From the NCBI GenBank assembly GCA_003222535.1, contig QHWJ01000332.1, positions 1-60,882 on the forward strand: a stretch of DNA of 60,882 nt, read 5' to 3'. The translations under genes and the position numbers were made by a program. This document shows, piece after piece, positions 21,670 through 38,895 of the stretch (position 1 is its first letter; every line of letters begins with the position of its first letter). This stretch comes from Acidobacteriota bacterium. Lineage in GTDB: Bacteria > Acidobacteriota > Vicinamibacteria > Vicinamibacterales > CAVVIG01. The notes beneath the pieces were generated by a model. The model worked only from the letters and a program-made list of their open reading frames with translations. It ran no database searches and was not told the DNA's origin.

Positions 21670-23154
21670 GTGCTGTACCGGTTCGGTCCCTTCACGCTGG
21701 ACGCCGGATCGTTCGCGCTTCATCGCGGCGACACGCCCGTCCCGCTCCCGCCAAAACTGCTCGACCTGGTTCGCTATCTCGTGGCGAAGCCTTCAACGCT
21801 TGTGTCCAAGGAGGAGCTGTTTCAGGCCCTTTGGCCGGACGTCGTGGTGACCGAGAATGCGCTGACGCAGGCGGTCTCGGATCTGCGCCAGGCACTCGGG
21901 GATGATCGCTCCAAGCCGACCTACATCCAGACGGTGGCGAAACGGGGCTATCGCTTCGTCGCGCCGGTTGAAGTCGTCGCCGACGAACCGGCGATGGCTC
22001 GGGCAGGTCGACGGCGAGAGACCTCGAGCCTCGATGCGCATCGGGCGCTCACCGAAGGACGGCTGCAGCTCGAGTCGCTGGACGCGTCCGATGTCGCTGT
22101 CGCCATCGAGAACTTCAAGCGGGCGCTCGACCTCGACCCGGGTTTTCCCGACGCGTACGTCGGCCTCGCGAACGCGCACTTCTGGATGTACGAGATGTCG
22201 CGCCACCGCGACCATCCGGACGCGTCGCTGCTTTCGCTCGCACTCGAGCAGGCGGAATGCGCCGTCGCGCTCGACGGCGAACTCGGCGAGGCGCACGCCA
22301 CGCTGGCCTACCTGCTGGTCGGTGCGAATCGATGTGACGAAGCGCGCGCGGCCGCGCAACGCGCAATCGCTCTCGAACCCGGATATTGGGCGCACTATTT
22401 CAGGCTCGGCAATGCGACGTGGGGCGGCGAGCGGCTGGCGGCGTTGCGACAGTGCCTCGACTTGTATCCGGATTTTCCGTTCGCGTACTTTCAAATGGCG
22501 ATGGTCCATGTGGCACGCAATGCTCTCGAGCTGGCCGCTCAGGCGTTACGCCAGGGGAGCGCCGTGCAGGAGGGCCGCCCGGACCAGCGCAAACGTTTTC
22601 CCGCCAATGGCCTGCACTGGATGCGAGGGCTCATTTGTCTGCGACGCGGCGATACACGAGGCGCCGTCGCGGACTTTGGCTTCGAGATCGATTCCGGCAG
22701 ACATCAGCTCTACGGGACCGAATACGCCATTGCGGCGATCAATGCGCATGGGTTTGCCTTGCTGCACGATGGTGAGCCGGCGCTTGCCCGGGAAATGTTT
22801 CAACGCGCTTTGGAGCTCTCCGACGATCAGACTCGCCCACGGCTGGGCCTCGCGCAGGCGCTGCTTGGTTTGGAGATGGTTCCCGACGCCAATCGAGAAC
22901 TCGCGCAGGTGCACGAGCACATTGCCGATCTTCAGCGCGTCCATCGAAAGGTGGACGCGGCAATCATGCAGGCCGGCGAGCTCGTTGTCCGGGGGAGGCT
23001 TGATGCAGCGCTCCAGGCGCTCTCGCGTATGCTCGCCGACACGCCGCCAGGATCCGCCGGCTGGTCCATTCCGATCGAGCCGCTCTTTGCACCGCTGAGA
23101 AACCTGCCGGCGTTCGAGGCGCTCCTCGCGACTCTGGGGACGCGCGCGCGATAG
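21670..23154 (+). CDS. Winged-helix (OmpR/CadC-type) regulator with TPR C-terminal domain
   Basis: 494 aa from a GTG. Residues 1-100 are an OmpR-type winged helix (RFGPFTLDAGSFALHRGDTP, LPPKLLDLVRYLVAKPSTLV, SKEELFQALWPDVVVTENAL, QAVSDLRQALGDD, YIQTVAKRGYRFVAPV), as in CadC and related one-component regulators. No membrane helix follows. The rest is a series of TPR-like helical pairs (AIENFKRALDLDPGFPDAYV, GLANAHFWMY, AVALDGELGEAHATLAYLLV, RAAAQRAIALEPGYWAHYFR, REMFQRALELSDDQTR). It probably binds DNA with the N-terminus and senses a partner or ligand with the TPRs. It is convergent with the lipid operon, 33 bp from its end, and is not obviously its regulator. Confidence 0.85.
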   Translation: MLYRFGPFTLDAGSFALHRGDTPVPLPPKLLDLVRYLVAKPSTLVSKEELFQALWPDVVVTENALTQAVSDLRQALGDDRSKPTYIQTVAKRGYRFVAPVEVVADEPAMARAGRRRETSSLDAHRALTEGRLQLESLDASDVAVAIENFKRALDLDPGFPDAYVGLANAHFWMYEMSRHRDHPDASLLSLALEQAECAVALDGELGEAHATLAYLLVGANRCDEARAAAQRAIALEPGYWAHYFRLGNATWGGERLAALRQCLDLYPDFPFAYFQMAMVHVARNALELAAQALRQGSAVQEGRPDQRKRFPANGLHWMRGLICLRRGDTRGAVADFGFEIDSGRHQLYGTEYAIAAINAHGFALLHDGEPALAREMFQRALELSDDQTRPRLGLAQALLGLEMVPDANRELAQVHEHIADLQRVHRKVDAAIMQAGELVVRGRLDAALQALSRMLADTPPGSAGWSIPIEPLFAPLRNLPAFEALLATLGTRAR

Positions 23155-23187: not shown

Positions 23188-23796
23188 TCACCGATGGAGG
23201 ACTTTGATCGCGTGGAGCGCGATGAGGCCGACAGGCCACATCGCGAAGACGACGAGAGCCAGCCGTCTCGGCCGAGGAACGACCACCGGTGAAACCATCG
23301 CCGCGCCGACGCCGACAAACAGCCCGATGACGAGCCATGGCAGCGTCGCCACGAGCAGATACGTGGCCCAGATCAGGGCGGCCACAGGTGTTGGTACACC
23401 GACGAACCCCGCATCGTCGTTCTCCGCGTTGTAAAAGCTCAAGCGTGTCGCCGCGGCGAGCACGTAAGCGCCGGCCGCAATCCACCAGACCGACGCGACG
23501 ACCGCGCCTTCAGGCGGGGACAGCGTTGCCATCACCACTACCGGCGCGACGCCGAAGCCGACGATGTCCACCAGGCTGTCGAGCTCGCGTCCTGTGCGGC
23601 GCTGCCGTTCGGTTCGCATGAAAGAGCGTGCGAAGCGACCGTCGAACGTGTCCGCCAGCGCGGCGACTGCCAGGAGTGCGCCCGCGAAAGCCGCGCCTCC
23701 CCGGCTGCCGGCGGCCGCCATCGCACCGATCGCGGCAGCGAGAGCCGTGTAAGTCAGCAAATTGCTCGGATGAACGTCGTGAATCGGCCCGCGCAT
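23188..23796 (-). CDS. CDP-alcohol phosphatidyltransferase
   Basis: 202 aa integral membrane enzyme that joins a CDP-activated lipid to an alcohol or amino-alcohol with release of CMP. The signature is ADTFDGRFARSFM then GRELDSLVDIVGFG: Asp52-Gly53, Ala56-Arg57, Gly69, Asp73 and Asp77, with a spacing that resembles phosphatidylserine synthase (PssA) more than PgsA. About six membrane helices are present. It is the last gene of the nine-gene lipid operon, 2 nt after the preceding stop. The head-group acceptor is unknown; serine is a fair guess from the PssA-like motif. Confidence 0.85.
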   Translation of the reverse strand: MRGPIHDVHPSNLLTYTALAAAIGAMAAAGSRGGAAFAGALLAVAALADTFDGRFARSFMRTERQRRTGRELDSLVDIVGFGVAPVVVMATLSPPEGAVVASVWWIAAGAYVLAAATRLSFYNAENDDAGFVGVPTPVAALIWATYLLVATLPWLVIGLFVGVGAAMVSPVVVPRPRRLALVVFAMWPVGLIALHAIKVLHR

Positions 23797-23798
23797 GT

Positions 23799-26450
23799 TC
23801 AGCTGAAGATTGTGTGAAGACGCCACCACGTCTTGACAATGCGCGGAAGAAACGCTTGCGGCTTGACGCGATTGATCATCGTGTAGAACGCCAGACGATT
23901 GATGATCAGATCGGCAAGCGCGGCGCGGAATCCCGCATGCCACTGGCCGGCGTCGATGGACCCGCCCGTCGCCAGAACGAGCGCCGCTCGATGACGCTCG
24001 ACCGAGCGGAGCGCCTCGTCCTCGGTCACGTCCGGCGACAGCACGAAGCACAGGAACTCGGCGAGGTCGGTCTGTGGGATGGCAACGGTCGCGAGCTCCC
24101 AGTCGTAAGCGCAGAGCTCGAACCGGCAGTCTCTCCGTCGAAGGGCGATGTTGCGCGTGTTGAAGTCGTTGTGAATGAGCGTCTGCGGCGATCGATCGAT
24201 GATCGACCAGCGATCGCCGATGGACTCGATGAGCATACGGTGAGTGGACACGATCGCAGGCGTCGTCCACTGAGCAAGGTACGGCTCGGCGTGATGACCG
24301 AGCGCGCGCCACAAGGGTCTCATCTCCAGAGCCGTTGCGCGTGACGGCACATGTCCGATCCAGTCGCGCTGCAACAATTCCGCGGCGCGCCCGTACCACG
24401 CAGCGTGAAGGTTGGCCAACCCGTCAATCGCCGTTTCGATGAACGACGGCGACCACGCGTCCGGTTCGCCGCTGCTGTCGATCAGCGCGACGCTGTCGAG
24501 GCGTTCCAGCGCGAGTCCCCACTCCCGTTTCTCGTCGTGCCGCCATGTGCCATAGCACACGGGCATGTGCGAACGTATCCGAGTGTCCGCCTCTTCGTAA
24601 ATCGTGAGCTCTCGCAGATGGCCGCCCCGGATCGGGAGGCGGTCCGCGTGGTCGGCCAGGGCCCTGCCAAGGGCGGGATCGCAAATCGCGCCGACTGTTT
24701 CCGCCACATCGATGACGTCGCTATCCTCGGGCTTTGCTTTGATGATGAGCGAAAGCACTTCGGCCTGGTTTCGCCGTTCGAAGGCGACGCTGTACTCGAA
24801 AAGTCCTGTTCGTCGCCCGTGTCGCCACGATGTAATCTCGCCGATGATGCTGTGATCGGACCGGCTCGAGACGAGGCGGTGTTCGCGGACGCGAAGACAC
24901 GGATCGGCGAAATGCTCGCGCAGCAGGCGTTCGACGAACGTGGGGTCCTCGTGGCATGCGGGTGGCGTGTGCAGTTGCGTCGCCGACCGCCGGTGCTGGG
25001 GCGCTGGCAGGACACCGCGCTCAATGTAGCGGTCAAAATAGCGTTCGAGCGTGTCCGCGTCGAGTCCCGGGCAGAGGAGTCCTTCGCCGGCCTCGGCTCC
25101 GCGCGTCCATCCGACACTCAACCGGCTCTTTCGCGTTTCCTGATAGAGCTCCGGAGTCGTGGAGCCGTCTGCGTGCTGTCGCAGGAAGAAACTGCGCAAC
25201 ACATGCAACGGATGATGGGACGACGTGGCCCCGCACGCCAGCTTTTCCCTCCATGCCTCGAAGGGCAGCAGAACGACGCGGTAGCCGAACAGGTTCATCC
25301 ACATGACGCACTCGCGCCAATGACGCGGGCGGGGGTTCGCGAAATGAAACGTCGGCGTGGGACCGGTGACCCTCTTCGACAACCGAACGATGGCGCGCGC
25401 GACATAGTCCACGGGCGGGGCGTCGATCTGCCAGTCGAGGTCGGGGGCCGCCGCCATGTGGATGCAGCCCTTCAGCATTGCCGCCAGAAGATCATCGGGG
25501 TTCGAGACACCCGATCGAGAGTCGCCGGCGAGAATCGACGGTCGGTGGATCGTGGTCGAGAGCCCGCGCCGGCCCGCCTCTCGCACGAGCGATTCAGCCA
25601 CGCACTTGCTTTGGGCGTACCCGAGCGGCAAGCGATCGACGAACGGCTGCATGTCGTCCTGTTCGCCGACCGACGACGGACCGTCGGTCGCGTAGCAGAC
25701 CGAGAGGCTGGAAACGAAATGGAAAGCAGCCCGCCGCGCCTCGCAAGCGAGGCGAAGCAGCTCACATGTGCCGATGACATTGACGTCACGCAGCCCGCGG
25801 TAGGACCGCACCCAATCGACGTCAGCGCCGGCGTGATAGATGGCATCGACACCGCCGGCGATCCGCGCGTAGTCGCCGGGCGACAGGCCCAGCCGGGGAA
25901 TGGAAAGATCTCCCTGGATGGTCTCGATGCGATTCGTAAAAGACGATGACCATACACCGTACTGCTCGAGATTACGGCGGACGCGAGCCATCCCTTCTTC
26001 TTCGCCCCCTCTTACCAGGCACCAGACGTTGGCCCCGGTTTCGGTGATGACCGCATCGATGAGATGCGCACCGAGGAATCCGGTCGCACCCGTCACCAGC
26101 ACCCGGCCGGCGGGCTCGGAAGGCGTGTGTGCCACCGAAGGACGAACATCGCCAGGCAGCACGCTGTCTCTCGCCATCAGTGCTCGGTCGTCACCAATCT
26201 CCTGTCCGCGAAGCGCCAGCGTGAGGGATTCGATATCCGGATGATCGCTGAGCAGCCACTCCGGCAGCGGCCGCTCGAACGCGTCTTCGAGCGCGGCGGT
26301 CAGCTCGACCGCTGCCAACGAATCGAGTGCGTAGAACGACAGCGGCCGGCCGAGGTCGATCTCCGCAGCGTCGATGTGGAGAAAGTCGGCCACGACGGCC
26401 ACGACCTGGTCGCGGACCTCGTTCGGTGACGTTTCAACGATCGCTGACAT
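23799..26450 (-). CDS. ACP - thioester reductase - APH-like kinase fusion
   Basis: 883 aa. Residues 1-80 are an acyl carrier protein with the phosphopantetheine site ALDSLAAVEL (Ser44). Residues about 115-480 are a short-chain reductase of the thioester-reductase type: NAD(P) motif VLVTGATGFLGAHL (121-127), FVSSLSVCYAT, GYAQSKCVAESLV (Tyr/Lys pair), THRPSILAG-like IHRPSILAG. Residues about 540-883 are a phosphotransferase of the APH/choline-kinase fold: LIHNDFNTRNIAL with His760, Asp762 and Asn767, and AYDWELA with Asp783. It would carry, reductively release and perhaps phosphorylate an acyl chain or its alcohol product. AGGAG precedes ATG 26450, which overlaps the acyl-AMP ligase gene by 17 nt. 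Confidence 0.85.
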   Translation of the reverse strand: MSAIVETSPNEVRDQVVAVVADFLHIDAAEIDLGRPLSFYALDSLAAVELTAALEDAFERPLPEWLLSDHPDIESLTLALRGQEIGDDRALMARDSVLPGDVRPSVAHTPSEPAGRVLVTGATGFLGAHLIDAVITETGANVWCLVRGGEEEGMARVRRNLEQYGVWSSSFTNRIETIQGDLSIPRLGLSPGDYARIAGGVDAIYHAGADVDWVRSYRGLRDVNVIGTCELLRLACEARRAAFHFVSSLSVCYATDGPSSVGEQDDMQPFVDRLPLGYAQSKCVAESLVREAGRRGLSTTIHRPSILAGDSRSGVSNPDDLLAAMLKGCIHMAAAPDLDWQIDAPPVDYVARAIVRLSKRVTGPTPTFHFANPRPRHWRECVMWMNLFGYRVVLLPFEAWREKLACGATSSHHPLHVLRSFFLRQHADGSTTPELYQETRKSRLSVGWTRGAEAGEGLLCPGLDADTLERYFDRYIERGVLPAPQHRRSATQLHTPPACHEDPTFVERLLREHFADPCLRVREHRLVSSRSDHSIIGEITSWRHGRRTGLFEYSVAFERRNQAEVLSLIIKAKPEDSDVIDVAETVGAICDPALGRALADHADRLPIRGGHLRELTIYEEADTRIRSHMPVCYGTWRHDEKREWGLALERLDSVALIDSSGEPDAWSPSFIETAIDGLANLHAAWYGRAAELLQRDWIGHVPSRATALEMRPLWRALGHHAEPYLAQWTTPAIVSTHRMLIESIGDRWSIIDRSPQTLIHNDFNTRNIALRRRDCRFELCAYDWELATVAIPQTDLAEFLCFVLSPDVTEDEALRSVERHRAALVLATGGSIDAGQWHAGFRAALADLIINRLAFYTMINRVKPQAFLPRIVKTWWRLHTIFS

Positions 26451-28221
26451 GGGTCTCCTGCCATCCGGCGAGGATCGGTAATGTGCCATCCTCTGCCTGC
26501 GCGGCGCACGTCGAGCGCTGAAGTTTCCCGCTCGTTGTCCTCGGTATCCAGCCGCACTCGACGAGGAAAACCGCGTGGATCTGCACGCCGTGAGCTTCGG
26601 CGACCGCGGCGCGGATATCAGCTATGCGGGCGGAGCTTGCACCGTCCAGGTCGAGCTCGCGGCGGTCGATTTCAGCCGCGATGCCGATAAGGTCTCCCGA
26701 TGTCCCACGACCGATCGCGAACGCCGCGACCACGCCTCCAGTGAGGGGATCGAGCCGATCGGCGACCGTACGCTCCAGATCCTGGGGGTAATGTTTGACG
26801 CCACGAACAATCAGGACGTCCTTGAGACGCCCTGTGACATAGAGCTCGCCATGACGTATGAAGCCGAGGTCCCCTGTTCGAAGGAACGGGCCCTGGCCGT
26901 CCACTGAATACGCGTTGAACGTGCGCGTGTTCTGTGCCGCCTGATTCCAATACCCGCGTGCCACACTCGGGCCCGCGACCCAAATCTCCCCCGTGTCGCC
27001 CGCTCGACATGGATGCGCGTTGGCCGGATCGACGATGAGGAGCCGCGTGCCGAATGACGGCCGGCCGCACGAGACCGCGTCGGGCTTTTCGGGCGAGGCC
27101 TCGGAGGGATGCCAGCGATCGCTTGTGACGAGAAGCGTGGACTCCGCCAGGCCGAACGAAGGACGGAATGAGGATGGCTGAAATCCGCAGCCGGCAAAGG
27201 TGCGCGCGAACGCGTCGAGCGTCTCGCGTCGGACCGGCTCGGCGCCGTTGTAGGCGGCACGCCACGCGCTCAGATCGAGGGTGTCGCGATCGGCCTTGGC
27301 GATCTTCCGCACGCACAAGTCGTAGGCAAAGTTCGGCGCGCCGCTTCGGGTCGCGCGATACTGCGAGATCGCGCGAAGCCAGCGCGCCGGGCGCTGTAGA
27401 AAAGCAGCCGGCGACATCAAGTACGCCGGACATCCGCTGTAGAGCGGCTGCAAGACCCCCTCGATCAGCCCCATGTCATGAACGACGGGTAGCCACGACA
27501 CCGATACCGTTGACTCATCGGTCTCTGCCAGGTGGAACGCGTATGCGAGGTTGTGCAGCAGGTTCCCGTGTGTGACCATCACGCCTTTTGGGCTCGCCGT
27601 CGATCCCGACGTGTACTGCAGGAACGCGATAGTGCTTCGATCCGGCGCGGGATCTCGCCAATCTGGCGCACTGTCCGTGATCTCGTCGCTCGCAATCACC
27701 TCGAGGCCCGGCGAAAAGGACAACCGTCCGATCGTCTCGCCCATCGTCAGCACAGCCGAGGGATCCGAGTCTCGGGAGATTGCGGCGAGTCGCTCGAGGC
27801 GCTGCGAGCCCGAACGCGAGACGGAACGACCGCCGCCGGGTGGAAACGCCGGCACCGCGATGACATTTGCAAACAGACATCCAAAGAACGCGCTGATGAA
27901 ATCGAGTCCCGGCGGGTAGAGCAGCAGCGCCCGCGAGCCGGGCCGTATCCGCAACTGGAGAAATGCCGCGATCGCGCGAGCGCGGCGTTCAAGCTCCGCG
28001 TACGTGACCGACGTGCCCTGCCGCTCGCCATCCTCGAGAAACGTGTAGGCGCACGACTCGGGCTGAGCGGCCGCCCGAAAGCGCAGCAGCTCGACCAGCG
28101 ATGCACCCACGAACGCCTTGCCGCGCGCGCCATCTCGCAACGCCGCGGCCACCGGCGCATTCGAGGCGTCAGCTTGCCTTCGCGGTCGCAGGTAGTTCGG
28201 AAACGCGTGTTGATTCGACAT
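26434..28221 (-). CDS. Fatty-acyl-AMP ligase (FAAL)
   Basis: 595 aa adenylate-forming enzyme. Domain order is typical: SLVELLRFRAAAQPESCAYT, FLEDGERQGTSVTYAELERR, PPGLDFISAFFGCLFANVIA and VPAFPPGGGR, A3 loop YTSGSTASPKGVMVTHGN (203-220), WLPVVHDMGLIEGVLQPLYS (FAAL HDMGLI motif), FGLAESTL, TGDLGFIRHGELYVTGRLKD, then VRGVKHYPQDLE. It activates a free fatty acid as acyl-AMP and passes it to a carrier protein, here most likely the ACP domain of the next gene, which it overlaps by 17 nt. ATG 28221 is preferred over an in-frame TTG 12 nt upstream. It overlaps the acyltransferase gene by 53 nt. Confidence 0.9.
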   Translation of the reverse strand: MSNQHAFPNYLRPRRQADASNAPVAAALRDGARGKAFVGASLVELLRFRAAAQPESCAYTFLEDGERQGTSVTYAELERRARAIAAFLQLRIRPGSRALLLYPPGLDFISAFFGCLFANVIAVPAFPPGGGRSVSRSGSQRLERLAAISRDSDPSAVLTMGETIGRLSFSPGLEVIASDEITDSAPDWRDPAPDRSTIAFLQYTSGSTASPKGVMVTHGNLLHNLAYAFHLAETDESTVSVSWLPVVHDMGLIEGVLQPLYSGCPAYLMSPAAFLQRPARWLRAISQYRATRSGAPNFAYDLCVRKIAKADRDTLDLSAWRAAYNGAEPVRRETLDAFARTFAGCGFQPSSFRPSFGLAESTLLVTSDRWHPSEASPEKPDAVSCGRPSFGTRLLIVDPANAHPCRAGDTGEIWVAGPSVARGYWNQAAQNTRTFNAYSVDGQGPFLRTGDLGFIRHGELYVTGRLKDVLIVRGVKHYPQDLERTVADRLDPLTGGVVAAFAIGRGTSGDLIGIAAEIDRRELDLDGASSARIADIRAAVAEAHGVQIHAVFLVECGWIPRTTSGKLQRSTCAAQAEDGTLPILAGWQETHVSDR

Positions 28222-28942
28222 GATGAACACCAAAGCGATGCCAGCCGACGAACATGTCTCGCACGTGCTCCTTGTGCTCGTGCAGCTGCTCGATGCGCCA
28301 CTCTGACGTATCGATGACCGGCATCACGTGGACGTGAACGACTCCGGGCCGCGCATCGAAGCCGAGTCCGGGATCGATCTCGCGAGGAATCCGGAAAAAG
28401 AGGGGCACGATGGGCGCTCTCAAGCTGATCGCCAGATGAAAGGCGCCCTTGTTGAAGTGACCGATTTCGCCGGTGGTGATGCGTCCTCCTTCCGGGCTCA
28501 GATATACCGATTCGCCAGTTCGTCGCAGGATGCGATCGGCGCGCTGGAAGATCCGGACGCGCTCCGCCTGCCGAGCCTGCGACACGGTGAAAAAGGTGCC
28601 CATCAACTGCGCGATGATGCCGAGCGGCACATATTTCCTGAGAAATCCGGACAGGAAAAACCGTGTATTCGGCAAGGCCAGCGCGACGAGGACGAACAGA
28701 TCGAGCGTCGACGTGTGATTCGACACGTAAACTGTCTGCGTTCGCGGGAACGCGCGGTCTTGATGGACGACGACCCGAACGCCCCACCATCGCAGCACCA
28801 GCCGGGCGGTGTGCGACGCAACGGCCGCGTACAACCGCCGCGCGCGGAACAATGTGACGATGGCAACGGGGATGAGGGCGAGCGCCGCGACGGAGATCGT
28901 CAGCAGGCTCGCTACCGACAGGACGATGACACGCGGGCGCAT
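28169..28942 (-). CDS. PlsC-family 1-acylglycerol-3-phosphate acyltransferase
   Basis: 257 aa. N-terminal membrane helix (VLSVASLLTISVAALALIPVAIV), then the acyltransferase motifs SNHTSTLD with His76 and Asp81 (HX4D), FFLSGFLRKYVPLGIIAQLM, SPEGGRITTGEIGHFNKGAF (usually EGTR; here EGGR, Glu151) and APIVPLFFRI. It would transfer an acyl group, possibly straight from the ACP, to a lysophosphatidate-like acceptor at the membrane. The start overlaps the methyltransferase stop by one base. Confidence 0.88.
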   Translation of the reverse strand: MRPRVIVLSVASLLTISVAALALIPVAIVTLFRARRLYAAVASHTARLVLRWWGVRVVVHQDRAFPRTQTVYVSNHTSTLDLFVLVALALPNTRFFLSGFLRKYVPLGIIAQLMGTFFTVSQARQAERVRIFQRADRILRRTGESVYLSPEGGRITTGEIGHFNKGAFHLAISLRAPIVPLFFRIPREIDPGLGFDARPGVVHVHVMPVIDTSEWRIEQLHEHKEHVRDMFVGWHRFGVHHVESTRVSELPATAKAS

Positions 28943-29883
28943 CAGCGTGCCTTTCTGCAGACGACCGTCTGCATCGCGAGGTTGCGTCGCTTGAGGAAGG
29001 GCAGCACCGGCAGCAGCAGAAGCTGGCCAGCGAAGTACGCGTAGATCGCCTTCTGCATGTTCAGCCCTCGCCCCTTGAGCAGTCGAAATGCGGTTCCGCA
29101 GAAGAGATAGAAATACGGCGGGAACGCCCCGTAGGGCAGGTGGTCGAGCACCTCGAACCCCGACCGCTCCATGGTTTTCAGGAGCAGCGCGCGATCGTAG
29201 AGCGCAGTGTGCTGAGGCGCCTGCACACCTGGCCACCGGTCGCCGAACAACCGGAACGTGACGCTGTCGAGCCTCGGCACTTCGACAATGAGCCGGCCTT
29301 CGGGCGCAAGACTCGCGTGGGCGTGTGCGAGCGAGCGCATCGGGTCGTAGTCGTGCTCGAGAAAGTGCCACATGGTGATGAGGTTGAATCGTTCCCGTTC
29401 GAACGGCTGGTCGTAAAACAAGCCGCGATGGAACTCGACCGCTCGAAGGGCCGGACGATCCCCAAGATCCATGAAGTCCACGCCGACGCCGGCGCAGCCG
29501 TGCCGGGAGCGCACGTGTGCCAGAAAAGTGCCCGCGCCGCAGCCGACGTCGAGCACCGCCGACGACGGTCCGAGCCGGAGGTAGCGATCGACGATCCGAA
29601 GCTTCTCGCGGTCGAGCGACTCGATGGCGCGCCGGAACAGCGGCGCAAGCCATCCCCAGTCGCTGGGCTGCCGATGCGCGATGTACTCCGACTCGTAGTA
29701 CGACTTGACATGCTCGAGCGTCGGCCGCGGGGACTGGTACACCAGGCTGCAGTCGCGGCAGCGGACGAACGTGAAGCGGCCGGGGCGGCCGGTGAGATCG
29801 TCCTCGGCCGTCAGGAACTTCGTGGCCGTCCCGCTGCCGCAGTAGTAGCAGGCGACGGCCTCGAACGCGGGTGCGGACATCAT
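28942..29883 (-). CDS. SAM-dependent methyltransferase with N-terminal zinc-ribbon
   Basis: 313 aa. The N-terminal CYYCGSG (Cys12, Cys15) and VRCRDCSLVYQ (Cys42, Cys45) form a small Cys4 ribbon common in methyltransferases of natural-product and surface-sugar loci. Then comes a class I fold: VLDVGCGAGTFLAHV (111-), VGVDFMD, FNLITMWHFLEHDYDP (post-I motif with WHFLEH) and PEGRLIVEVPRLDS. A hydrophobic C-terminal stretch (YAYFAGQLLLLPVLPFL) may attach it to the membrane. The acceptor is unknown; within this operon it may methylate a lipid head group. Start ATG 29883 overlaps the UbiA-like stop (ATGA). Confidence 0.82.
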   Translation of the reverse strand: MMSAPAFEAVACYYCGSGTATKFLTAEDDLTGRPGRFTFVRCRDCSLVYQSPRPTLEHVKSYYESEYIAHRQPSDWGWLAPLFRRAIESLDREKLRIVDRYLRLGPSSAVLDVGCGAGTFLAHVRSRHGCAGVGVDFMDLGDRPALRAVEFHRGLFYDQPFERERFNLITMWHFLEHDYDPMRSLAHAHASLAPEGRLIVEVPRLDSVTFRLFGDRWPGVQAPQHTALYDRALLLKTMERSGFEVLDHLPYGAFPPYFYLFCGTAFRLLKGRGLNMQKAIYAYFAGQLLLLPVLPFLKRRNLAMQTVVCRKAR

Positions 29884-30443
29884 GATGTGACTCCCGCGAC
29901 ATGACGCCTTCCGTGCAGTGCTTCGTACACGCACGCTGTCGCATAGGCGGCCATCGCGGCGGCTGAGAGCCTGCCGCCTTGCGGCACGCCGAGGACCGTC
30001 GCGACGACGACGACGAACGCCGGGTATTTGATCAAGAGGATCGAGAACCGCCACATGGCGTCGGGAACGTAGCGTCGTATCCGTCGATAGGCCGCGTAGA
30101 AGCCCAGATCCAGAAACACGATCTCGATTGCGGCGGTCGAACCGGCGACGCCGCAAATCGCGACGTTTGTCAGCGCGACGTACATCAACGCGCGCCGGTA
30201 CGGGGCCGCCGGTGTGCGAACCAGCACCCGTTCCGGATGCGCGGTTCTGTCGTGGTCACGATCCTCGATGTCATCCCATAACCTGAACTGCAGCAGGAGA
30301 AGAACCGAGAGAGCGGTCGCGCCCACCAGCGCGGCCGATGCCGGCGGGGCCGTGCTGGCCCAGCGCGCGGCCGCAGCGATGCCGATGGCGGCGAAACCGA
30401 AAATCCGCAGCGGGAAACGTGCGCGCAGGTAGGCCCCCAACAT
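29880..30443 (-). CDS. UbiA-like prenyltransferase family membrane protein, short
   Basis: 187 aa with about five membrane helices. The segment LQFRLWDDIEDRDHDRTAHP corresponds to the first Asp-rich motif of UbiA enzymes (NDxxDxxxD), with the following ERVLVR as in PERPL. UbiA proteins are usually 270-300 aa with two Asp motifs; this one is shorter and no second DxxxD is obvious, though DLGFYAAYRRIRRYVPDAMW could be a remnant. A transfer of an isoprenyl or other lipid chain to an acceptor is possible, or the family has diverged to a new role. It starts 1 nt after the preceding stop. Confidence 0.6.
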   Translation of the reverse strand: MLGAYLRARFPLRIFGFAAIGIAAAARWASTAPPASAALVGATALSVLLLLQFRLWDDIEDRDHDRTAHPERVLVRTPAAPYRRALMYVALTNVAICGVAGSTAAIEIVFLDLGFYAAYRRIRRYVPDAMWRFSILLIKYPAFVVVVATVLGVPQGGRLSAAAMAAYATACVYEALHGRRHVAGVTS

Positions 30444-30444
30444 G

Positions 30445-33117
30445 TCAGCTCGCCAACGGGACCGCGATCGAGCAGATCCCTCGATCGCCGTCCACCGTTA
30501 CCAGCGCGCCGTGCGCGATTCGCCGTGTGGCGTCCTTGATCCCGACTACGCAGGGAAGACCGAATTCGCGCGCGATGATGGCGCCATGCGAGAGCATGCC
30601 ACCGCGCTCGATGACCAGGCCTGATATCAGACAGAACACTGGAGCCCACCCCGGATCGGTCTGACGGGTGACGAGCACGTCGCCCCGGCGCAGGTGACGG
30701 GCTTCGCGAACGTCGGCCAGGACCGCTGCGGGCGCCGTGATTGATCCTCCACACGCGCTCGTTCCGATCATGATCGCCGCATCGTCTGGCGGCGATTCGA
30801 AGCGGGCCGCAGCCACGTGGCCCTCGAGCGGAAGATAGCAGCCCTCCGGCAGGCGAACCGTGTCGGGTGGCCGCATGGCCGCAAGACGATCGTGATCCCG
30901 ACGGCGCAGCGTGATCAGATCCGCGGCGTGATAGGGGAACATGGAGCGTCCGTCTGCGAGATCGCTGACCTCCTGTACCGTCAACATGAACACGTCGTCT
31001 CGGTGCGTGATCACCGACCGGCGAACGAGCTCGTCTCCGATGGCGAGCGCGATGGCGCGGCAGCGAGTGTAGAGAAGCGCCTGCTTCAGCCGTACGCGCT
31101 CGCGATAGACGACGGCGCGTTGAGTGCAGGGGAGAAGGAATGCGACATAGATGGCTCGCAGAGGCGTGCGACTGGCGAGACCTCCGAACAGACGCCAGGT
31201 CTCGGCACGCCGGGTTGCTGCCTGCCGCGCGATCGCCGCCTCGGGCGGCTCGCCTTCCATCGCGGCGTATCCCTTGAGCAGATCGATCACCGGACGCGGA
31301 TCTTCCTGGAAGCTCGGCTCCGTGAGCATCAACTCGGCCGACGACCGGAATCCCCACTCAGCCAGAAATAGATCGAGATCGCGACGAAACGGCGCGAATC
31401 GGTTGTCGTGCCGGATCGCGCTCAACACGTCGGCTGGCTCGCCGTCGAAGAGCCCGCGCAGCGAAACATCCGATCGGATGGTCCGCGAAAGCGCCCAGAG
31501 GCGAAGCGGGGGAATGCTCGAGGGTACACCGGGCAATCCACGCAGCAGCCGGTTGTGCAGCGCTCGGTCGTCTTCACTCGCGAGCGCACGCTGGAGGAGC
31601 GCGTAGCACACCATCGCCGCGGTGTCGGCGAGCGATGCGTTTGTCCAGCGATGGCATCGGATATCGACAAATCCGCGGAGGTCGTCGACCAGCTCTCCGA
31701 GCGTCCGGCCGACGAGGCATTCTGGGCCGACGCGCGCGGCGAAGCGATCGGCCGCTCGCTCGAACGAGCGCACGCGACGGCGAAGGAACAGAAACTGCCA
31801 CGCAGTCTGCGCCGCGATCCGCAGAAGCTCCGCCGCCTGCGTCAGGCGACCGCGTCGAGTGTGCCAGCTCAAAGCATCGGGCGGCTGCGACGCCGTCTCA
31901 TCGACTCCGACGAACTGGTTGAACGCTGCCGCGAGCCGTTCGCCGAACGGCGCCATGCGAAGCACCGCGTGGATGTTCGTCAGGTTGTAGTACATCCGCG
32001 CCCCGTGGACGCCGATGACCCCGGCGAGGCGCCGGTCCATCGCGCGCAGTCGGCGCCGCGACACGCCGAAGGCGAGCCCGAGATTGCGGAAGTAGTGGTA
32101 GTAACCCGCCTCCGCGATCGAATAGAGCAGCGGCGAAATTGCCCGCGGGAAATTCTCGTTGACGTTGGCATTCGACCACAGCACATCGGGCCGACGATTC
32201 GGGTCGCCATCTCCCCCGGTGGATGTCGTGATGGGGCGGGTTTGGAGAATCCAGAGCACGCCGTCCTGGTCGATTGCCCACTCGATGTCCTGAGCCGCGC
32301 CCAGCTGGGCTTCCAGTCTGAGCGAAAGCCGTGACAGCTCGACGACCTGTTCTGGCGCGAAGGACGCGGTGCTGTCGATTCCGGCGGTCTCGGCGTCGGG
32401 CGATGTCGCGGTTTGAACACTCAGCGTTGTCCGCGAAACAACGAGCCGATACGGATCAACGCGGCCTGAGACCAGGGCATCCCCGAGGCCCGCGCAGTAC
32501 TCGATGACGAGATCGTCCGGCCCCGATTGCGCGAGGCCTTGCGGCGCTCGCGTGAACAGCACGCCCGATATGCGCGCCGCGATCTGTCGCTCGACGATGA
32601 CGGCCATGCTGCTGAAGGGCAGTCGGCGCGCCGCCCGGTAGAACAGCGCGCGGTTGGACCAGCACGACGCCCAGCACGCAAGAACAGCGTGGCGGAGCTC
32701 GGCCTCGCTCCTCACCCCGAGAATCGAATCGAACTGGCCGGCAAATGACGCCCGCGCGCCGTCTTCGCCACCCGCCGAACTGCGGACCGCGACTTCTTGA
32801 TGAAGGGGCAGTCGTCCGGCGATGGCGTGGAGCTCGTCCTGAACGGGGGCTGGGAGCGTCGCCGTCATCACGAGGGTTCGGATGGCCTCAGCTGTGCGCC
32901 GCAGCCGTTCCGGCTCGTTCGGATCGAGAGCTCGCGTCAGACGCTCGAGCCGATCGGTCAACCTGTTGTGGGCGATGAATTCATCAAAAGCTGCCCGCGT
33001 CAGCACTGTTCCCTCGGGAACCGGCGCCCCGAGGGCGATCAATCGGGCCAGGTTCTGCGCCTTGCCGCCGACCTCGGCCTCGTTGGTGGCATCAGCAAGC
33101 GCGATCCCGAACGTCAT
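30445..33117 (-). CDS. PEP synthase / rifampin-phosphotransferase-like dikinase
   Basis: 890 aa. An ATP-grasp-like N-terminal module of pyruvate phosphate dikinase type (GGKAQNLARLIALGAPVPEG, VAVRSSAGGEDGARASFAGQ, ISGVLFTRAP, AQDIEWAIDQDGVLWILQTR) is followed by a long helical middle region (about 330-780) and a C-terminal swivelling phospho-His domain (GDVLVTRQTDPGWAPVF, GLVIERGGMLSHGAIIAREF, GLPCVVGI; His844). There is no C-terminal PEP-binding TIM barrel, so the layout equals rifampin phosphotransferases and related enzymes that phosphorylate a small or lipid alcohol. ATGA overlap with the upstream gene. The acceptor is unknown. Confidence 0.8.
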   Translation of the reverse strand: MTFGIALADATNEAEVGGKAQNLARLIALGAPVPEGTVLTRAAFDEFIAHNRLTDRLERLTRALDPNEPERLRRTAEAIRTLVMTATLPAPVQDELHAIAGRLPLHQEVAVRSSAGGEDGARASFAGQFDSILGVRSEAELRHAVLACWASCWSNRALFYRAARRLPFSSMAVIVERQIAARISGVLFTRAPQGLAQSGPDDLVIEYCAGLGDALVSGRVDPYRLVVSRTTLSVQTATSPDAETAGIDSTASFAPEQVVELSRLSLRLEAQLGAAQDIEWAIDQDGVLWILQTRPITTSTGGDGDPNRRPDVLWSNANVNENFPRAISPLLYSIAEAGYYHYFRNLGLAFGVSRRRLRAMDRRLAGVIGVHGARMYYNLTNIHAVLRMAPFGERLAAAFNQFVGVDETASQPPDALSWHTRRGRLTQAAELLRIAAQTAWQFLFLRRRVRSFERAADRFAARVGPECLVGRTLGELVDDLRGFVDIRCHRWTNASLADTAAMVCYALLQRALASEDDRALHNRLLRGLPGVPSSIPPLRLWALSRTIRSDVSLRGLFDGEPADVLSAIRHDNRFAPFRRDLDLFLAEWGFRSSAELMLTEPSFQEDPRPVIDLLKGYAAMEGEPPEAAIARQAATRRAETWRLFGGLASRTPLRAIYVAFLLPCTQRAVVYRERVRLKQALLYTRCRAIALAIGDELVRRSVITHRDDVFMLTVQEVSDLADGRSMFPYHAADLITLRRRDHDRLAAMRPPDTVRLPEGCYLPLEGHVAAARFESPPDDAAIMIGTSACGGSITAPAAVLADVREARHLRRGDVLVTRQTDPGWAPVFCLISGLVIERGGMLSHGAIIAREFGLPCVVGIKDATRRIAHGALVTVDGDRGICSIAVPLAS

Positions 33118-33704
33118 GCGGCACGCGCCTTTCCGCCGAGTTGAAACAGGAGCAAGCTGAAAGACGCATGGAGAAGCGGGCCGACGATCAGAACATACGC
33201 CCAGGTGAGCCAGGACACCGGCGCCACGATCGTCAGCGCGACCAGCATTCCGAGAATCGAGTCGATTCGGTCGAAGACGCCGAAGAGCCGGCGCGCGTAG
33301 ACAGCGTCCGCAGCCTGGCCGGGCGCGATCCCAAGCTGGCGTTTCACGAACGAGTTCGGCAGCTCGCCGAGCATGAACCCCATGCCGGCCCACATGCCCA
33401 GGAGCCCGTAGTCTGCTGACGCTCCGGGCCATAGTCCCGTCTGGCCGGACGGCGATCCCTCGAGCAGGCCCGCGAGTGCTGCAAATGAGAGCCCGGTGGC
33501 CGGCACCATGATCACGAAGCCCCGCAGGGTCTTGTTCGCGCCGAAGATTCGTCGTCCGCGAAATGTCCTCCCTCCATCCAGCGGGATGGCAAAACGGCGG
33601 GAGAGGGGCAGCGCCAACCACGCGGTCTGTGAGACGCCCGCCAGCGTGAACGCGCCCACGAGAAAAGCGGCGCACGCAGCCGGGTTCAGTAGCGCGCCCG
33701 TCAT
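33114..33704 (-). CDS. CDP-archaeol synthase (CarS)-like membrane cytidylyltransferase
   Basis: 196 aa. The family signature is visible: LDGGRTFRGRRIFGANKTLRGF, then GLLGMWAGMGFMLGELPNSFVKRQLG and FDRIDSILGMLVA, with five to six membrane helices. CarS makes CDP-archaeol from CTP and unsaturated archaetidic acid; bacterial members of this DUF46-like family are related to CdsA. In this operon it can be expected to make the CDP-activated lipid that the CDP-alcohol phosphatidyltransferase at 23188-23796 uses. ATGA overlaps couple it to both neighbours. Confidence 0.78.
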   Translation of the reverse strand: MTGALLNPAACAAFLVGAFTLAGVSQTAWLALPLSRRFAIPLDGGRTFRGRRIFGANKTLRGFVIMVPATGLSFAALAGLLEGSPSGQTGLWPGASADYGLLGMWAGMGFMLGELPNSFVKRQLGIAPGQAADAVYARRLFGVFDRIDSILGMLVALTIVAPVSWLTWAYVLIVGPLLHASFSLLLFQLGGKARAA

Positions 33705-34660
33705 ACGTCGAACCCCGACTCATTCCGGTTTTGGAACAGAAACACGTCGCCGGGAATCGCGCGAGCGGCCGGTACCCACTCTCGCCAGCTCACTTCGTTG
33801 GCCGCAGCGTACGGAACTTCATTCAAGCGGTATCCCGGCACGAACGGATACATGTGATGGAGCTCGTGGGCGTCGAAGTGGAGGCAGATGCGCGACAACC
33901 ACGGTGGCAGGCGGAGCGATCGCGTAAAGGGCTCCTGAGCCAGGGCTCGATATGGTTCGACCACGCGGCCCTGGCTCAGCCCCATCGGCACGTGCGTGTG
34001 CTGGCTGAGGAGGAGCACATCCTCCGCCATCAGGGCCAGGACCAGCGCGACGCCCACAGTTCGGGCAACCGGCATTGGACCGACGAGCAGAACAACGGCG
34101 ACATACGTGGCAGTCTGCGCCACCGCGTTCGTGATGAAGTTCCGCCGGGCGCGTCGATCGGAGCGGAACAGTTGCATTAAACGAGGCATGTTCCAGAAGT
34201 TGTCGACGCGATACACGGTCGAGAAGAGCGGAATCCACCACTTCCAGCACACGTTCACCGCCCAGCGCTCGAATCGGCTGCGTGGCCGAGGCGTCAGCGA
34301 CACCGTCGTCGGATCGAGATCCTGCCAGCCGGTCCATCGGTGATGACGGGCGTGAATACGGCGCCAGCATTCGAAGGGAATCACGGCAAAGAAGCCGGCG
34401 ACATAGCCGGCAGGGCGGTGAAGAGCGTGGGTGCGAAAGAGCGTGTCGTGGCCGCACTCGTGCAGCACCACGAACCATTCGACAAGCGCCGCGGCGAGGA
34501 CGACCTGGCCAAGCGCCCACAGAAACACGGCGTCATGGCTCGAGAGCCAGCCGGCCGCTACGGTGGCGGCCAGGGTGCCGCCGACGACCAATATGCCACT
34601 CAGATTTCCTGGCTTCAGGTGGTACAGATCAGCCGAACGGGGAGGTGTGTCTGCTCGCAT
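33701..34660 (-). CDS. Membrane fatty-acid desaturase / hydroxylase
   Basis: 319 aa di-iron membrane enzyme. Three His boxes are complete: HECGHD at 67-72, HARHHRW at 103-109 and HELHH at 265-269, embedded in four or more membrane helices. It would desaturate or hydroxylate an acyl or alkyl chain with O2. It is the first gene of the lipid operon, so its 5' side (34661-34981) should hold the operon promoter; I could not fix a -35/-10 pair there. ATG 34660 is chosen because upstream codons run through non-protein-like sequence. The stop overlaps the CarS-like start (ATGA). Confidence 0.87.
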   Translation of the reverse strand: MRADTPPRSADLYHLKPGNLSGILVVGGTLAATVAAGWLSSHDAVFLWALGQVVLAAALVEWFVVLHECGHDTLFRTHALHRPAGYVAGFFAVIPFECWRRIHARHHRWTGWQDLDPTTVSLTPRPRSRFERWAVNVCWKWWIPLFSTVYRVDNFWNMPRLMQLFRSDRRARRNFITNAVAQTATYVAVVLLVGPMPVARTVGVALVLALMAEDVLLLSQHTHVPMGLSQGRVVEPYRALAQEPFTRSLRLPPWLSRICLHFDAHELHHMYPFVPGYRLNEVPYAAANEVSWREWVPAARAIPGDVFLFQNRNESGFDV

Positions 34661-34981: not shown

Positions 34982-34988
34982 ATGTACA
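34976..34988. promoter_or_regulatory. Palindrome overlapping the antitoxin start, possible operator
   Basis: TGTACAATGTACA, a 13-bp near-perfect palindrome lying on the first ATG (34982). Phd/YefM antitoxins commonly repress their own operon at palindromes near the start; the TGTACA half-sites fit that idea. If correct, ATG 34991 could be the real start. Confidence 0.45.
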
Positions 34989-35242
34989 TCATGAAGCGGT
35001 ACACCGTCAGTCAGGTTCGTGGACGCCTCGCCGAAGCCCTCGATCAGGCAGACCGTGGTGTGCCGGTTATCATCGAACGAAAGGGAATCCGGTACTCCCT
35101 CAAGGCTGAACCGCCGGCGACGGCCCGACGGTGGAAGAAATCGGTGATCGAGATTCTGGATCCGGCGGTCGCCGAGGGCCAATGGACGTGGGACCTCGGT
35201 CCTGACGGCTTACGGTTCCGGGGCGGCCGTTCGCGGCGATGA
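34982..35242 (+). CDS. Phd/YefM-like antitoxin
   Basis: 86 aa (83 from the ATG at 34991). The N-terminal part MKRYTVSQVRGRLAEALDQADRGVPVIIERKGIRYSL is a prevent-host-death fold that dimerises and binds DNA; the C-terminal part (KKSVIEILDPAVAEGQWTWD) is the toxin-binding tail. Its stop overlaps the toxin start by 4 nt, the usual toxin-antitoxin coupling. Confidence 0.82.
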   Translation: MYIMKRYTVSQVRGRLAEALDQADRGVPVIIERKGIRYSLKAEPPATARRWKKSVIEILDPAVAEGQWTWDLGPDGLRFRGGRSRR

Positions 35243-35607
35243 TCCTGCTCGACACCAGCGCCCTGCTCTGGCTCGAGGGCGGCCATCGGCGTGTGCGCGT
35301 GTTGGCCTCCGGCCACCAGCCGCTCTATATGTCACCTGCGACCCTCCTGGAGCTCCAGATCCTGCGCGAAGCGGGCCGAATCCGGCTCCGGGCCGGATCC
35401 GTGGCGTCACTCGCCCACGACGATCGCTGGCTGCTGGACGAGCCACCTGCGGGGCGCTGGTTCGACACAGCACTCGATCTGACGTGGACCCGCGACCCGT
35501 TCGACCGCCTGATTGTCGCGCACGCGCAGCTCCGCGGCTGGCGTCTGGCCACCGCCGACAAAGCCGTGCTCGCGCATTTGCCTGAGGCGGGGCGATTGGA
35601 GCTGTGA
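35239..35607 (+). CDS. PIN-domain (VapC-like) ribonuclease toxin
   Basis: 122 aa. PIN landmarks are MILLDTSALLWLEG (Asp5), SPATLLELQILREAGRI (conserved Glu), TRDPFDRLIVAHAQLRGWRL (Asp pair) and ATADKAVLAH, together a Mg-binding RNase site. It cleaves RNA when freed from the antitoxin encoded just upstream. Length and gene order are standard. Confidence 0.87.
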   Translation: MILLDTSALLWLEGGHRRVRVLASGHQPLYMSPATLLELQILREAGRIRLRAGSVASLAHDDRWLLDEPPAGRWFDTALDLTWTRDPFDRLIVAHAQLRGWRLATADKAVLAHLPEAGRLEL

Positions 35608-37512: not shown

Positions 37513-38895
37513 TTAGCAGCATGAAATCACCGCGGTGAACACCAGCATTCGCACATCTCCGGCCATGCCCGCAGCACGCGACAGGTCGGGAGGCAGATGC
37601 GGAGCGAGGGCGGCAGTCACGGCCAGTGCGACCAGAAAGCCAGCGATCCCGCCGATGCCGGCCAACAACAGACTCTCCGTCAGAAGTTGTCGTGCGAGCC
37701 GCCCGCGGCTGGCACCGAGCGCAGCCCGGACCGCCATCTCTGTTTGGCGCCCCGCCGCCCGGCTCAACAGAAGGTTCGCGACGTTCGCGCAGGCGATCAG
37801 CAGCACCAGTCCAACGGCGCCAAGCAGCGTCGCCAGTGGCGCGCGAACAGTCGCCGTGACCCGCTCCGCCAGCGAAACCGCCGCGATTCCCTTATCGCGG
37901 TTGTTGTCGGGATACAGTCGCGCCATGTTGGCCGCGATAACATCGAGTTCCGCCTGGGCCTCCGTGAGTGTGACGCCAGGCGCGAGCCGCGCGATCACCC
38001 GCAGCGGATGCGTCCCGCGCTGCAGTCGCTGAAGATCGAGCGCCAGCGGAACCCAAATGTCGGGTTGGCTGCGCGTCTGAAAATCTGCCGCCGTGCTCCC
38101 GAACTGAAAACCCGCCGGCAGGACGCCGACCACCGTGTAGCTGTCGTCGTTCAGGGTGATGGCTCTACCTGCGATCTCGCGGTCGGCGCCGAACTGTTCG
38201 CGCCACACTGAGTAGCCCAGAATCGCAACGCGATTCCGGCCAGGCCGGTCCTCCTCCGGAAGAAAATTGCGGCCCAGCGTGAAACGGGTCCCTAATACGG
38301 AAAAGAAACTCGACGAAACGTTCGCTCCGGCCAACCGCGACGCCTCGCTCTGTCCGTCCAGAATGAAGCTGGACGCACTCACCGCCGCCATCTCGCTGAA
38401 CGACCTGCTCGCGCCGCGCCAATCCACGAAATTCGCCGGTGCCACTGTGCTCGGCGTTCCATCGCGCTGCCGTTCCCAAAGCGTCACGATGCGGCTCGGC
38501 TCGGGATAAGGCAGCGGCTTGAACAACACCGCATTGCACACGCTGAAAATAGCCGTATTCGCACCGATCCCGAGCGCCAGCGTCACCACGGCTGCCGCCG
38601 CGAAGGCCCGATTCTTTCGCAGCATTCGGACCGCGTAGGCCAGATCCGCCCGCACTGACTCGATGGCCGGGAACATCTGCATGCTCCTCCGGTCGTCCTC
38701 CAAGAACGTGGTATTGCCGAACTGCCGCCGCGCCGCCAGCATGGCGGCTTCTGCCGTCATGCCCTGCCGGCGATAGCGCTCCGTCAGCAATCGGACGTGT
38801 TCCTCGATCTCCGCCTGAAACTCCGGGTCGCGCGGCTCATCGAGAACCGTGGCGCGAATCCGAGTCCACAATTTCAGAAGCCACCGCCGGATCAT
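37513..38895 (-). pseudogene. C-terminally truncated ADOP-type permease
   Basis: 460 aa of an expected 800 or more. It has the N-terminal helical extension of PadR-linked permeases ([33 protein letters not shown]), then the membrane helix [20 protein letters not shown], periplasmic core and first FtsX block ([37 protein letters not shown]), then stops at [12 protein letters not shown]. The second core and FtsX block are gone; the following 96 bp up to the amidase carry only a short unrelated frame. Probably non-functional. The start overlaps the PadR remnant (ATGA). Confidence 0.8.

Follow-up and report, generated by a model that had tools for sequence, protein, structure and literature searches.

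The stretch of DNA analyzed here, referred to as the window, comprises 60,882 nucleotides of an Acidobacteriota bacterium (contig QHWJ01000332.1) and represents contig 23 of a host genome of 8.06 Mb that is 95.5% complete. An earlier note, made from the letters of the window, had described nine coupled genes on its minus strand at positions 23188-34660. All nine reading frames were found, and with the start codons chosen seven of the eight junctions are tight: five are overlaps (4, 4, 4, 1, and 17 nt) and two are short gaps (1 and 2 nt). Some of the start codons are uncertain. The junction between plsC and the gene for a fatty acyl-AMP ligase (FAAL) depends on the start of the latter: ATG 28221 gives an overlap of 53 nt, GTG 28152 a gap of 16 nt, and GTG 28110 a gap of 58 nt. 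Alternative ATG codons are present also for the methyltransferase gene (29880) and for the gene of a fusion of acyl carrier protein (ACP), thioester reductase, and kinase (26489). Matches above the Pfam cut-offs were obtained for FA_desaturase, CarS-like, PPDK_N plus PEP-utilizers, Methyltransf_23, Acyltransferase, AMP-binding, PP-binding plus NAD_binding_4 plus APH, and CDP-OH_P_transf. The functions that the note had assigned agree with these and with the NCBIfam families; UbiA was the weakest assignment and was later backed by the predicted fold. Repeats within the operon were judged to be chance-like, GC-rich matches.

The catalytic residues of the desaturase, the dikinase, PlsC, the fusion protein, and the CDP-alcohol transferase were checked in alignments of loci sharing the layout of the window (type A, see below) and were conserved to at least 95%. 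The first gene, des (33701..34660, minus strand like all genes of the operon), encodes a membrane protein of the fatty-acid-desaturase family of 319 aa (PF00487, E = 1e-21) with the histidine boxes H67/H71, H103/H106/H107, H221/H223, and H265/H268/H269, for which 15 type A rows were available. It is overlapped by 4 nt by carS (33114..33704), which encodes a CarS-like CTP:lipid-phosphate cytidylyltransferase of 196 aa. This protein matched PF01864 above the cut-off (E = 7e-12) and NCBIfam PRK04032 below it (E = 1.4e-16), and its sole PDB match was a weak one (5guf, E = 0.07). The following gene (30445..33117) encodes a dikinase-type phosphotransferase of 890 aa resembling Rph and phosphoenolpyruvate synthase, with an N-terminal ATP domain (PPDK_N, residues 14-300), an acceptor region of about 500 aa, and a C-terminal swiveling histidine domain (PEP-utilizers, residues 810-880) with H844 (17 rows); these two were the only Pfam families found at E ≤ 0.01. 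Its nearest PDB entries, 5fbs, 5hv1, and 5hv2 (E = 4-5e-68), are titled phosphoenolpyruvate synthase, and we take them to be rifampin phosphotransferases.

Downstream of the gene for the UbiA-like protein, which is described below, the operon encodes a methyltransferase dependent on S-adenosylmethionine (28942..29883, 313 aa; PF13489, E = 1e-23) with an N-terminal Cys4 motif (C12, C15, C42, C45) that is kept at ≥95% in 23 rows and may bind zinc, as judged from these residues. It is followed by plsC (28169..28942, 257 aa; PF01553, E = 1e-18; TIGR00530, E = 5e-17, under its cut-off), whose product carries N75, H76, D81, E151, and G152 at ≥95% in 24 rows. The FAAL has 595 aa (26434..28221, with the start at 28221, 28152, or 28110) and scored 416 bits with the fatty-acid-AMP ligase model PRK05850 versus 277 bits with PRK07768, the highest-scoring of the models named CoA ligase, and 142 bits with PRK06187, all three under their cut-offs. 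Its nearest PDB entries were 7r7e, titled polyketide synthase (E = 2e-140), and 3kxw (E = 5e-121), followed by FadD23 and FadD32. By sequence, the ligase is closer to FAALs than to CoA ligases. The fusion protein (23799..26450, 883 aa) starts with an ACP domain (26220..26411, residues 14-77; PF00550, E = 8e-10), whose Ser44 is found in at least 95% of the type A rows having that column. It continues with a thioester reductase domain (25014..26102, residues 117-479), which scored 296.8 bits with TIGR01746 (cut-off 213.35), has the conserved residues Y278 and K282, and was matched also by the Epimerase model. Its nearest PDB entry is MxaA (4u7w, E = 4e-79), presumably an alcohol-forming reductase. 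The last gene (23188..23796) encodes a CDP-alcohol phosphatidyltransferase of 202 aa (PF01066, E = 3e-12) resembling serine transferases: the best NCBIfam model was archaetidylserine synthase, followed by PssA, all under cut-off, and the only PDB matches at E ≤ 0.01 were the phosphatidylserine synthases 7pow and 7b1k.

The UbiA-like membrane protein (29880..30443) has 187 aa, comprises approximately the initial two thirds of the UbiA fold, and matched PF01040 below the cut-off (E = 7e-4). An AlphaFold2 model of the window protein reached a pLDDT of 91.3 and a pTM of 0.86 and spans roughly residues 1-200 of the 275-290 residues of the fold targets. In a comparison with VIA-align, four structures tied, namely the UbiA homologue 4od5 (Z 14.8, rmsd 3.1, 175 residues aligned), the digeranylgeranylglyceryl phosphate (DGGGP) synthase 7bpu (14.5, 4.0, 180), the membrane phosphoribosyltransferase 8j8j (14.3, 3.5, 181), and the archaeal lipid synthase 6m31 (14.2, 4.1, 182), and MoeN5 and soluble prenyl synthases scored next (Z 10-13). 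Foldseek also ranked UbiA homologues first. The aspartate motif (motif 1; D57, D58, D61, D65) is intact in the window protein, and R54, D58, D65, R72, K139, and Y140 are invariant in 20 of 20 members. The Pfam UbiA model was matched at E ≤ 0.1 by 9 of 20 type A members and by 7 of 13 members of a second cluster type (type B, see below), and hhalign joined the profiles of both types with a probability of 97. A shortened UbiA fold is predicted for the protein from the model.

The distribution of the cluster was first determined with the CDP-alcohol transferase as marker (E ≤ 1e-20). The cluster is rare: within the order the marker occurs in 8 of 162 genomes and within the phylum in 2 of 396, the window included. 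The reductase-kinase gene adjoins that of the CDP-alcohol transferase in all seven other genomes of the order, being cut by a contig end in one of them (L039). The earlier note had proposed to look for its gene order in other Acidobacteriota, and the complete nine-gene order was indeed recovered in three further genomes (G063, G068, G185); the remaining stretches agree with it up to their contig ends. In a second scan, genomes of named species were searched with an alignment of the kinase domain, which gave 139 relatives, of which the 80 best loci were kept and mapped by blast and by home-made hidden Markov models (HMMs) trained on hits in those loci. The two scans overlap, as L051, L052, L056, L057, and L088 seem to be contigs of G025, G034, G063, G066, and G065. 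Type A loci occur in Acidobacteriota, Planctomycetota, Gemmatimonadota, Pseudomonadota, and one further bacterium. Among 18 type A cases (the window plus 17 loci picked for flank length, with cut loci excluded), carS and the genes for dikinase, UbiA-like protein, methyltransferase, and reductase-kinase were present in all 18, des and plsC in 17 each, the FAAL gene in 15, and the CDP-alcohol transferase gene in 9. These counts include a divergent CDP-alcohol transferase gene on the opposite strand in L076 and exclude a type-B-like one in L110; in L054, des possibly lies beyond the flank, and the methyltransferase gene is fragmentary in L104, which lacks plsC, and in two pieces in L056. The order of the genes present is kept in 15 of 18 cases, the exceptions being L110 and L126 (des at the end) and L076 (CDP-alcohol transferase gene in front, on the other strand). 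With the nine-gene order in three further genomes and the order kept in 15 of 18 cases, the gene set is no chance arrangement.

Five loci of Pseudomonadota (L070, L076, L098, L115, L121) have no detected FAAL gene, the fusion gene coming next after plsC; in L070 and L098 the flanks are short, and the absence of a more distant FAAL gene is less certain in these two. Massilia glaciei belongs to the type A bacteria without FAAL. In all five, the fusion protein aligns only from residue 87-95 on, i.e., without the ACP, and in the L115 protein Pfam finds no PP-binding (carrier) domain. The five loci form one clade (support 100/99), in which FAAL and ACP seem to have been lost together. This joint loss is expected if the FAAL loads the ACP and supports a relay from FAAL via ACP to the reductase.

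The C-terminal part of the fusion protein (23799..24950) is a kinase domain that has both the fold of APH/choline-kinase-fold kinases and their HxDxxxxN ... D catalytic residues (K571, H760, D762, N767, D783; PF01636, E = 3e-6 for the protein). Its AlphaFold2 model (pLDDT 93.6) matched kinase-type folds at Z 15.8-18.6 among the 50 matches listed, and the first Foldseek matches were Rv3168 and a 25-hydroxy-steroid kinase. Within the 80 best of the 139 relatives, the kinase is fused to a thioester reductase in 26 and to a 3-hydroxy-3-methylglutaryl-CoA (HMG-CoA) reductase domain in 54 loci; of the latter, L101 is cut by a contig end before the partner and L068, L080, and L110 are frame-split. 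In a kinase tree of 82 rows, from which L116 was excluded for its length, 29 rows with thioester reductase and 53 with HMG-CoA reductase lie on opposite sides of one branch (100/100). Thioester reductases and HMG-CoA reductases turn thioesters into alcohols, and some of the former go no further than the aldehyde. Since both partner families make alcohols, the kinase is most simply read as phosphorylating that alcohol, and it probably does so. In the HMG-CoA-reductase fusions, the catalytic residues, numbered as in the human enzyme (E559, K691, D767, H866), are kept in 49 of 49 proteins. The column assigned to S684 holds E or D in 49 and that assigned to H752 N or D in 49; in the column assigned to K735, none of the 47 listed residues is K. 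Three annotated plasmid HMG-CoA reductases serving as controls likewise have neither K at K735 nor S at S684, and all three have H at H752. An argument on the substrate of the domain drawn from these columns reduces to H752, the only position that differs from the controls; it was rejected and kept only as a hint. Plasmid relatives of the fusion protein were set aside, as those listed (20 of 94 records) match its ACP or reductase parts only; an HMG-CoA-reductase-kinase gene without annotation is present on one Streptomyces plasmid.

The genes for HMG-CoA-reductase-kinase, UbiA-like protein, dikinase, and CarS occur together in 23 of the 54 HMG-CoA-reductase loci, which we termed type B (L107:2877-17692; L065, L069, L071, L074, L075, L078, L079, L081, L083, L084, L085, L090, L093, L094, L096, L099, L100, L103, L113, L117, L119, L124). 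They belong mostly to Gammaproteobacteria (Marinobacter, HdN1, Thalassolituus, and others) and differ from type A by the HMG-CoA-reductase domain in place of the ACP-thioester reductase. A CDP-alcohol transferase gene is present in all 23, an AMP ligase gene in 22, a gene for a GNAT-like protein in 21, and an MMPL gene in 17. The GNAT-like protein has no Pfam match and is GNAT-like by eye. The HMMs for plsC and des matched none of the 23 loci, and that for the methyltransferase only L117, weakly. In the one type B locus examined by Pfam, L107, there was no UbiA match and CarS was matched only under the cut-off. A planctomycetal locus (L059:2-14899) contains type A genes (methyltransferase, plsC, FAAL, reductase-kinase) beside type-B-like ones, namely those for an AMP ligase and a UbiA-like protein and a fragment of a dikinase gene.

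We also searched the host genome for other ether-lipid routes. No match to PcrB or geranylgeranylglyceryl phosphate (GGGP) synthase was found at E ≤ 0.001, with the control matched in 7 of 14 genomes, and none to DUF2229, which presumably marks PlsA, with the control matched in 4 of 14. Only a single strong thioester reductase was found in the genome (the second-best match had E = 7e-12), and no HMG-CoA reductase. Four proteins with an FAD-oxidase_C domain are encoded, and the three that were compared resemble lactate/glycolate oxidoreductases most, AGPS entries ranking lower. Should an ether lipid be the product, then, as far as these searches reach, its bond is probably made by an enzyme of the operon, and the UbiA-like protein is the best candidate.

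From the genes, families, conserved residues, linkage, and predicted folds described above we infer the following reactions and their order. The FAAL would activate a fatty acid and load it onto the ACP, the thioester reductase would release the acyl chain as an alcohol, and the fused kinase would convert this fatty alcohol into an alkyl phosphate. The Rph-like dikinase could add a further phosphate, giving an alkyl diphosphate, or phosphorylate a later intermediate. The UbiA-fold protein would then form an ether between the activated alkyl chain and glycerol phosphate, in the manner in which the DGGGP synthase of archaea attaches an isoprenoid chain; this chemistry would be easiest with an allylic (2-enyl) alcohol. 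PlsC would acylate the other hydroxyl group, the CarS-like enzyme would form the CDP-lipid, and the CDP-alcohol transferase would add a head group, with serine as the likeliest choice; tailoring of the product may fall to the desaturase and the methyltransferase. We give this route to a specialized glycerophospholipid with one reduced (alkyl) chain, including ether formation by the UbiA-like protein, a probability of roughly 0.4. Our confidence in an alkyl-containing phospholipid as the product is moderate; it is low for the exact step forming the ether, which is the least certain of all. The families, the conserved residues, and the conserved gene set support the idea of the earlier note that a self-made fatty alcohol enters a dedicated CDP-lipid branch.

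Several observations weigh against the proposed route. The earlier note had stated that unlinked genes in related genomes would refute its proposal; the genes are linked, though the CDP-alcohol transferase gene is absent from half of the 18 type A cases. In nine actinobacterial genomes with an HMG-CoA-reductase-kinase, CarS was found in none and a dikinase match at E ≤ 1e-30 in five, the four Streptomyces among them having no dikinase match at this threshold. Without CarS, these kinases have other neighbors, and the kinase is therefore not tied everywhere to this phospholipid set. With respect to the UbiA-like protein, Foldseek gave no match at E ≤ 0.001 (best 0.06), a membrane phosphoribosyltransferase scores equal to DGGGP synthase in the fold comparison, and a Z of about 14 was also the best value reached by five models that are mostly helical and have no clear match, so that helical arrangement alone can give such values; the fold match thus depends in addition on motif 1 and on the profile of UbiA. 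Motif 2 (Y-x5-K) was not seen in the protein, Y119 and K139 being 20 residues apart, and motif 3 is reduced to E/D174 (20 of 20) and D178 (13 of 20; G178 in the window). To our knowledge, the alkyl donors known for UbiA enzymes are allylic diphosphates, and saturated alkyl diphosphates donate poorly. The window protein ends at 187 aa and is shorter than DGGGP synthase, for which nine helices and three motifs are given in the available excerpts of PMC9385802. No biochemical or lipid data for the operon were found.

An alternative without any ether bond would be an alkyl-phosphodiester lipid, in which the CarS-like enzyme makes a CDP-alkyl and the CDP-alcohol transferase passes the phospho-alkyl group to an acceptor acylated by PlsC, the UbiA-like protein having another role. 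The fused kinase would yield a phosphomonoester fit for a cytidylyltransferase, and CarS is present in 18 of 18 type A cases. However, the dikinase and the UbiA-like protein, both equally constant, would be left without a job, and the CarS/CdsA substrates described in the excerpts of PMC9385802 are glycerol-based, so that we consider such a lipid quite unlikely. The tie of the phosphoribosyltransferase 8j8j with DGGGP synthase (Z 14.3 versus 14.5) would fit another function, like that of the mycobacterial membrane phosphoribosyltransferase, in which the UbiA-like protein would transfer a phosphoribosyl moiety, or one like it, to the alkyl phosphate and generate a lipid-linked sugar phosphate instead of an ether lipid. 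Membrane phosphoribosyltransferases of this type take a lipid monophosphate as acceptor, which here would come from the fused kinase. This would leave PlsC, CarS, and the serine-type CDP-alcohol transferase unexplained, which makes it very doubtful.

The operon might also supply a secreted small-molecule lipid, i.e., a secondary metabolite, rather than a membrane lipid. Its rare and patchy distribution would fit, as would the MMPL-type (exporter) gene in 17 of 23 type B loci, a LolA-like gene in the one type B locus examined by Pfam, and frames resembling polyketide synthases and nonribosomal peptide synthetases (PKS/NRPS) seen by eye near some actinobacterial relatives. By contrast, type A loci have no strong MMPL match (one weak match of 21 bits in L118), and PlsC, CarS, and CDP-alcohol transferases are families of membrane-phospholipid enzymes; a secreted product thus appears unlikely. 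Finally, the alcohol could be fed into an ether-forming step of the myxobacterial ElbD type, for which speaks that all four ElbD domain types are present in the operon. Separate genes, different partners, the additional CarS, UbiA, dikinase, and kinase functions, and the lack of AGPS among the three compared of the four host candidates render this highly improbable.

Beside the operon, three further features were assigned by eye. A pair of small plus-strand genes just upstream (34982-35607) appears to encode a Phd-type antitoxin and a PIN-domain toxin, a convergent plus-strand gene downstream (21670-23154) a winged-helix regulator with tetratricopeptide repeats, and two genes for MacB/FtsX-like permeases flank the region on both sides (18456-20924 and 37513-38895). 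Regarding the actinobacterial HMG-CoA-reductase-kinases (L125, L127, L128, and L102, L105, L109, L111, L120), those of Gordonia, Nocardia, and Antrihabitans are located beside a UbiA-like gene and PKS/NRPS-like frames, again by eye, and in Streptomyces no conserved UbiA was found. A role of UbiA as constant companion of the kinase in Streptomyces was rejected, the UbiA of L102 matching only itself among the loci searched.

In the PMC full texts searched with terms for the gene set, outside of which lie most subscription papers and all preprints, we recognized no description of the nine-gene set, and we found none of the type B cluster. The operon appears to be an undescribed assembly line leading from a fatty acid via a fatty alcohol and its phosphate to an unusual, probably ether-type, membrane lipid. 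Being compact, shared by several phyla, and equipped with a candidate archaeal-type ether-forming enzyme, the operon offers a testable target. The fusion of one kinase with two unrelated kinds of reductase, both leading from thioester to alcohol, hints at a class of alcohol kinases for which we found no description. In its widest form, the proposal would be a new bacterial ether-lipid route unrelated to AGPS, Pls/Ger, and ElbD, using an alkyl (perhaps 2-alkenyl) diphosphate, a minimal UbiA-type transferase, and an archaeal-type CarS and CDP-alcohol transferase, with the reductase partner of the kinase exchanged between an ACP-thioester reductase and an HMG-CoA-reductase domain; this we regard as conceivable, albeit somewhat unlikely.

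Parts of the operon can be compared with known enzymes. The 25-hydroxy-steroid kinase shares the kinase fold and phosphorylates an alcohol of a hydrophobic molecule, but identity is 10-12%, and in the excerpts of PMC8449060 it is a catabolic enzyme preferring a tertiary alcohol. The dikinase shares with Rph and the prodiginine ligases RedH and PigC the layout with the ATP domain first and the histidine domain last; it scored far under the cut-offs of their NCBIfam models (314.5 bits versus 999 for the Rph equivalog), and only the layout agrees.

As a whole, the operon resembles the elb system in the joint presence of a reductase, an acyl-activating enzyme, an ACP, and a PlsC/AGPAT-type acyltransferase. 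According to the excerpts of PMC9131029, ElbD combines a FAR1-like reductase, an acyl-CoA-synthetase-like domain, an ACP, and an AGPAT-like acyltransferase; elbD-type clusters of sponge Acidobacteriota and Poribacteria are reported in those of PMC9426513. The four domain types of ElbD, with which the earlier note had compared the operon, are thus shared, but ElbD unites them in one protein and the operon distributes them over three adjacent genes (plsC, FAAL, ACP-reductase-kinase), with a FAAL where ElbD is described with a CoA-ligase-like domain. The excerpts of PMC9131029 do not list CarS, a dikinase, UbiA, a kinase, or a CDP-alcohol transferase for the elb cluster, and among the nine genes, to which the search was confined, there is no separate HAD-type gene like elbB or epimerase-type gene like elbA and elbE. 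The operon is therefore outside the definition of the elb cluster, being set apart from ElbD by the published description, as far as excerpted, and not by sequence. With its domains in separate genes and five extra functions, "split, extended" ElbD-type pathway, the term used in the note, is not the best description; the later half rather resembles the archaeal order of UbiA, CarS, and CDP-alcohol transferase. The families of the archaeal ether phospholipid pathway, i.e., that of DGGGP synthase (here a candidate UbiA-type protein), CarS, and a CDP-alcohol transferase of the archaetidylserine synthase type, appear in matching logical order (PMC9385802, excerpts). In contrast to that pathway, the host genome has no GGGP synthase match and the UbiA protein is shortened, and the chain would be fatty instead of isoprenoid, with PlsC acylating one position. 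Archaeal-type lipid synthesis in bacteria of the FCB group, as outlined in the excerpts of PMC7852524, rests on GGGP and DGGGP synthases.

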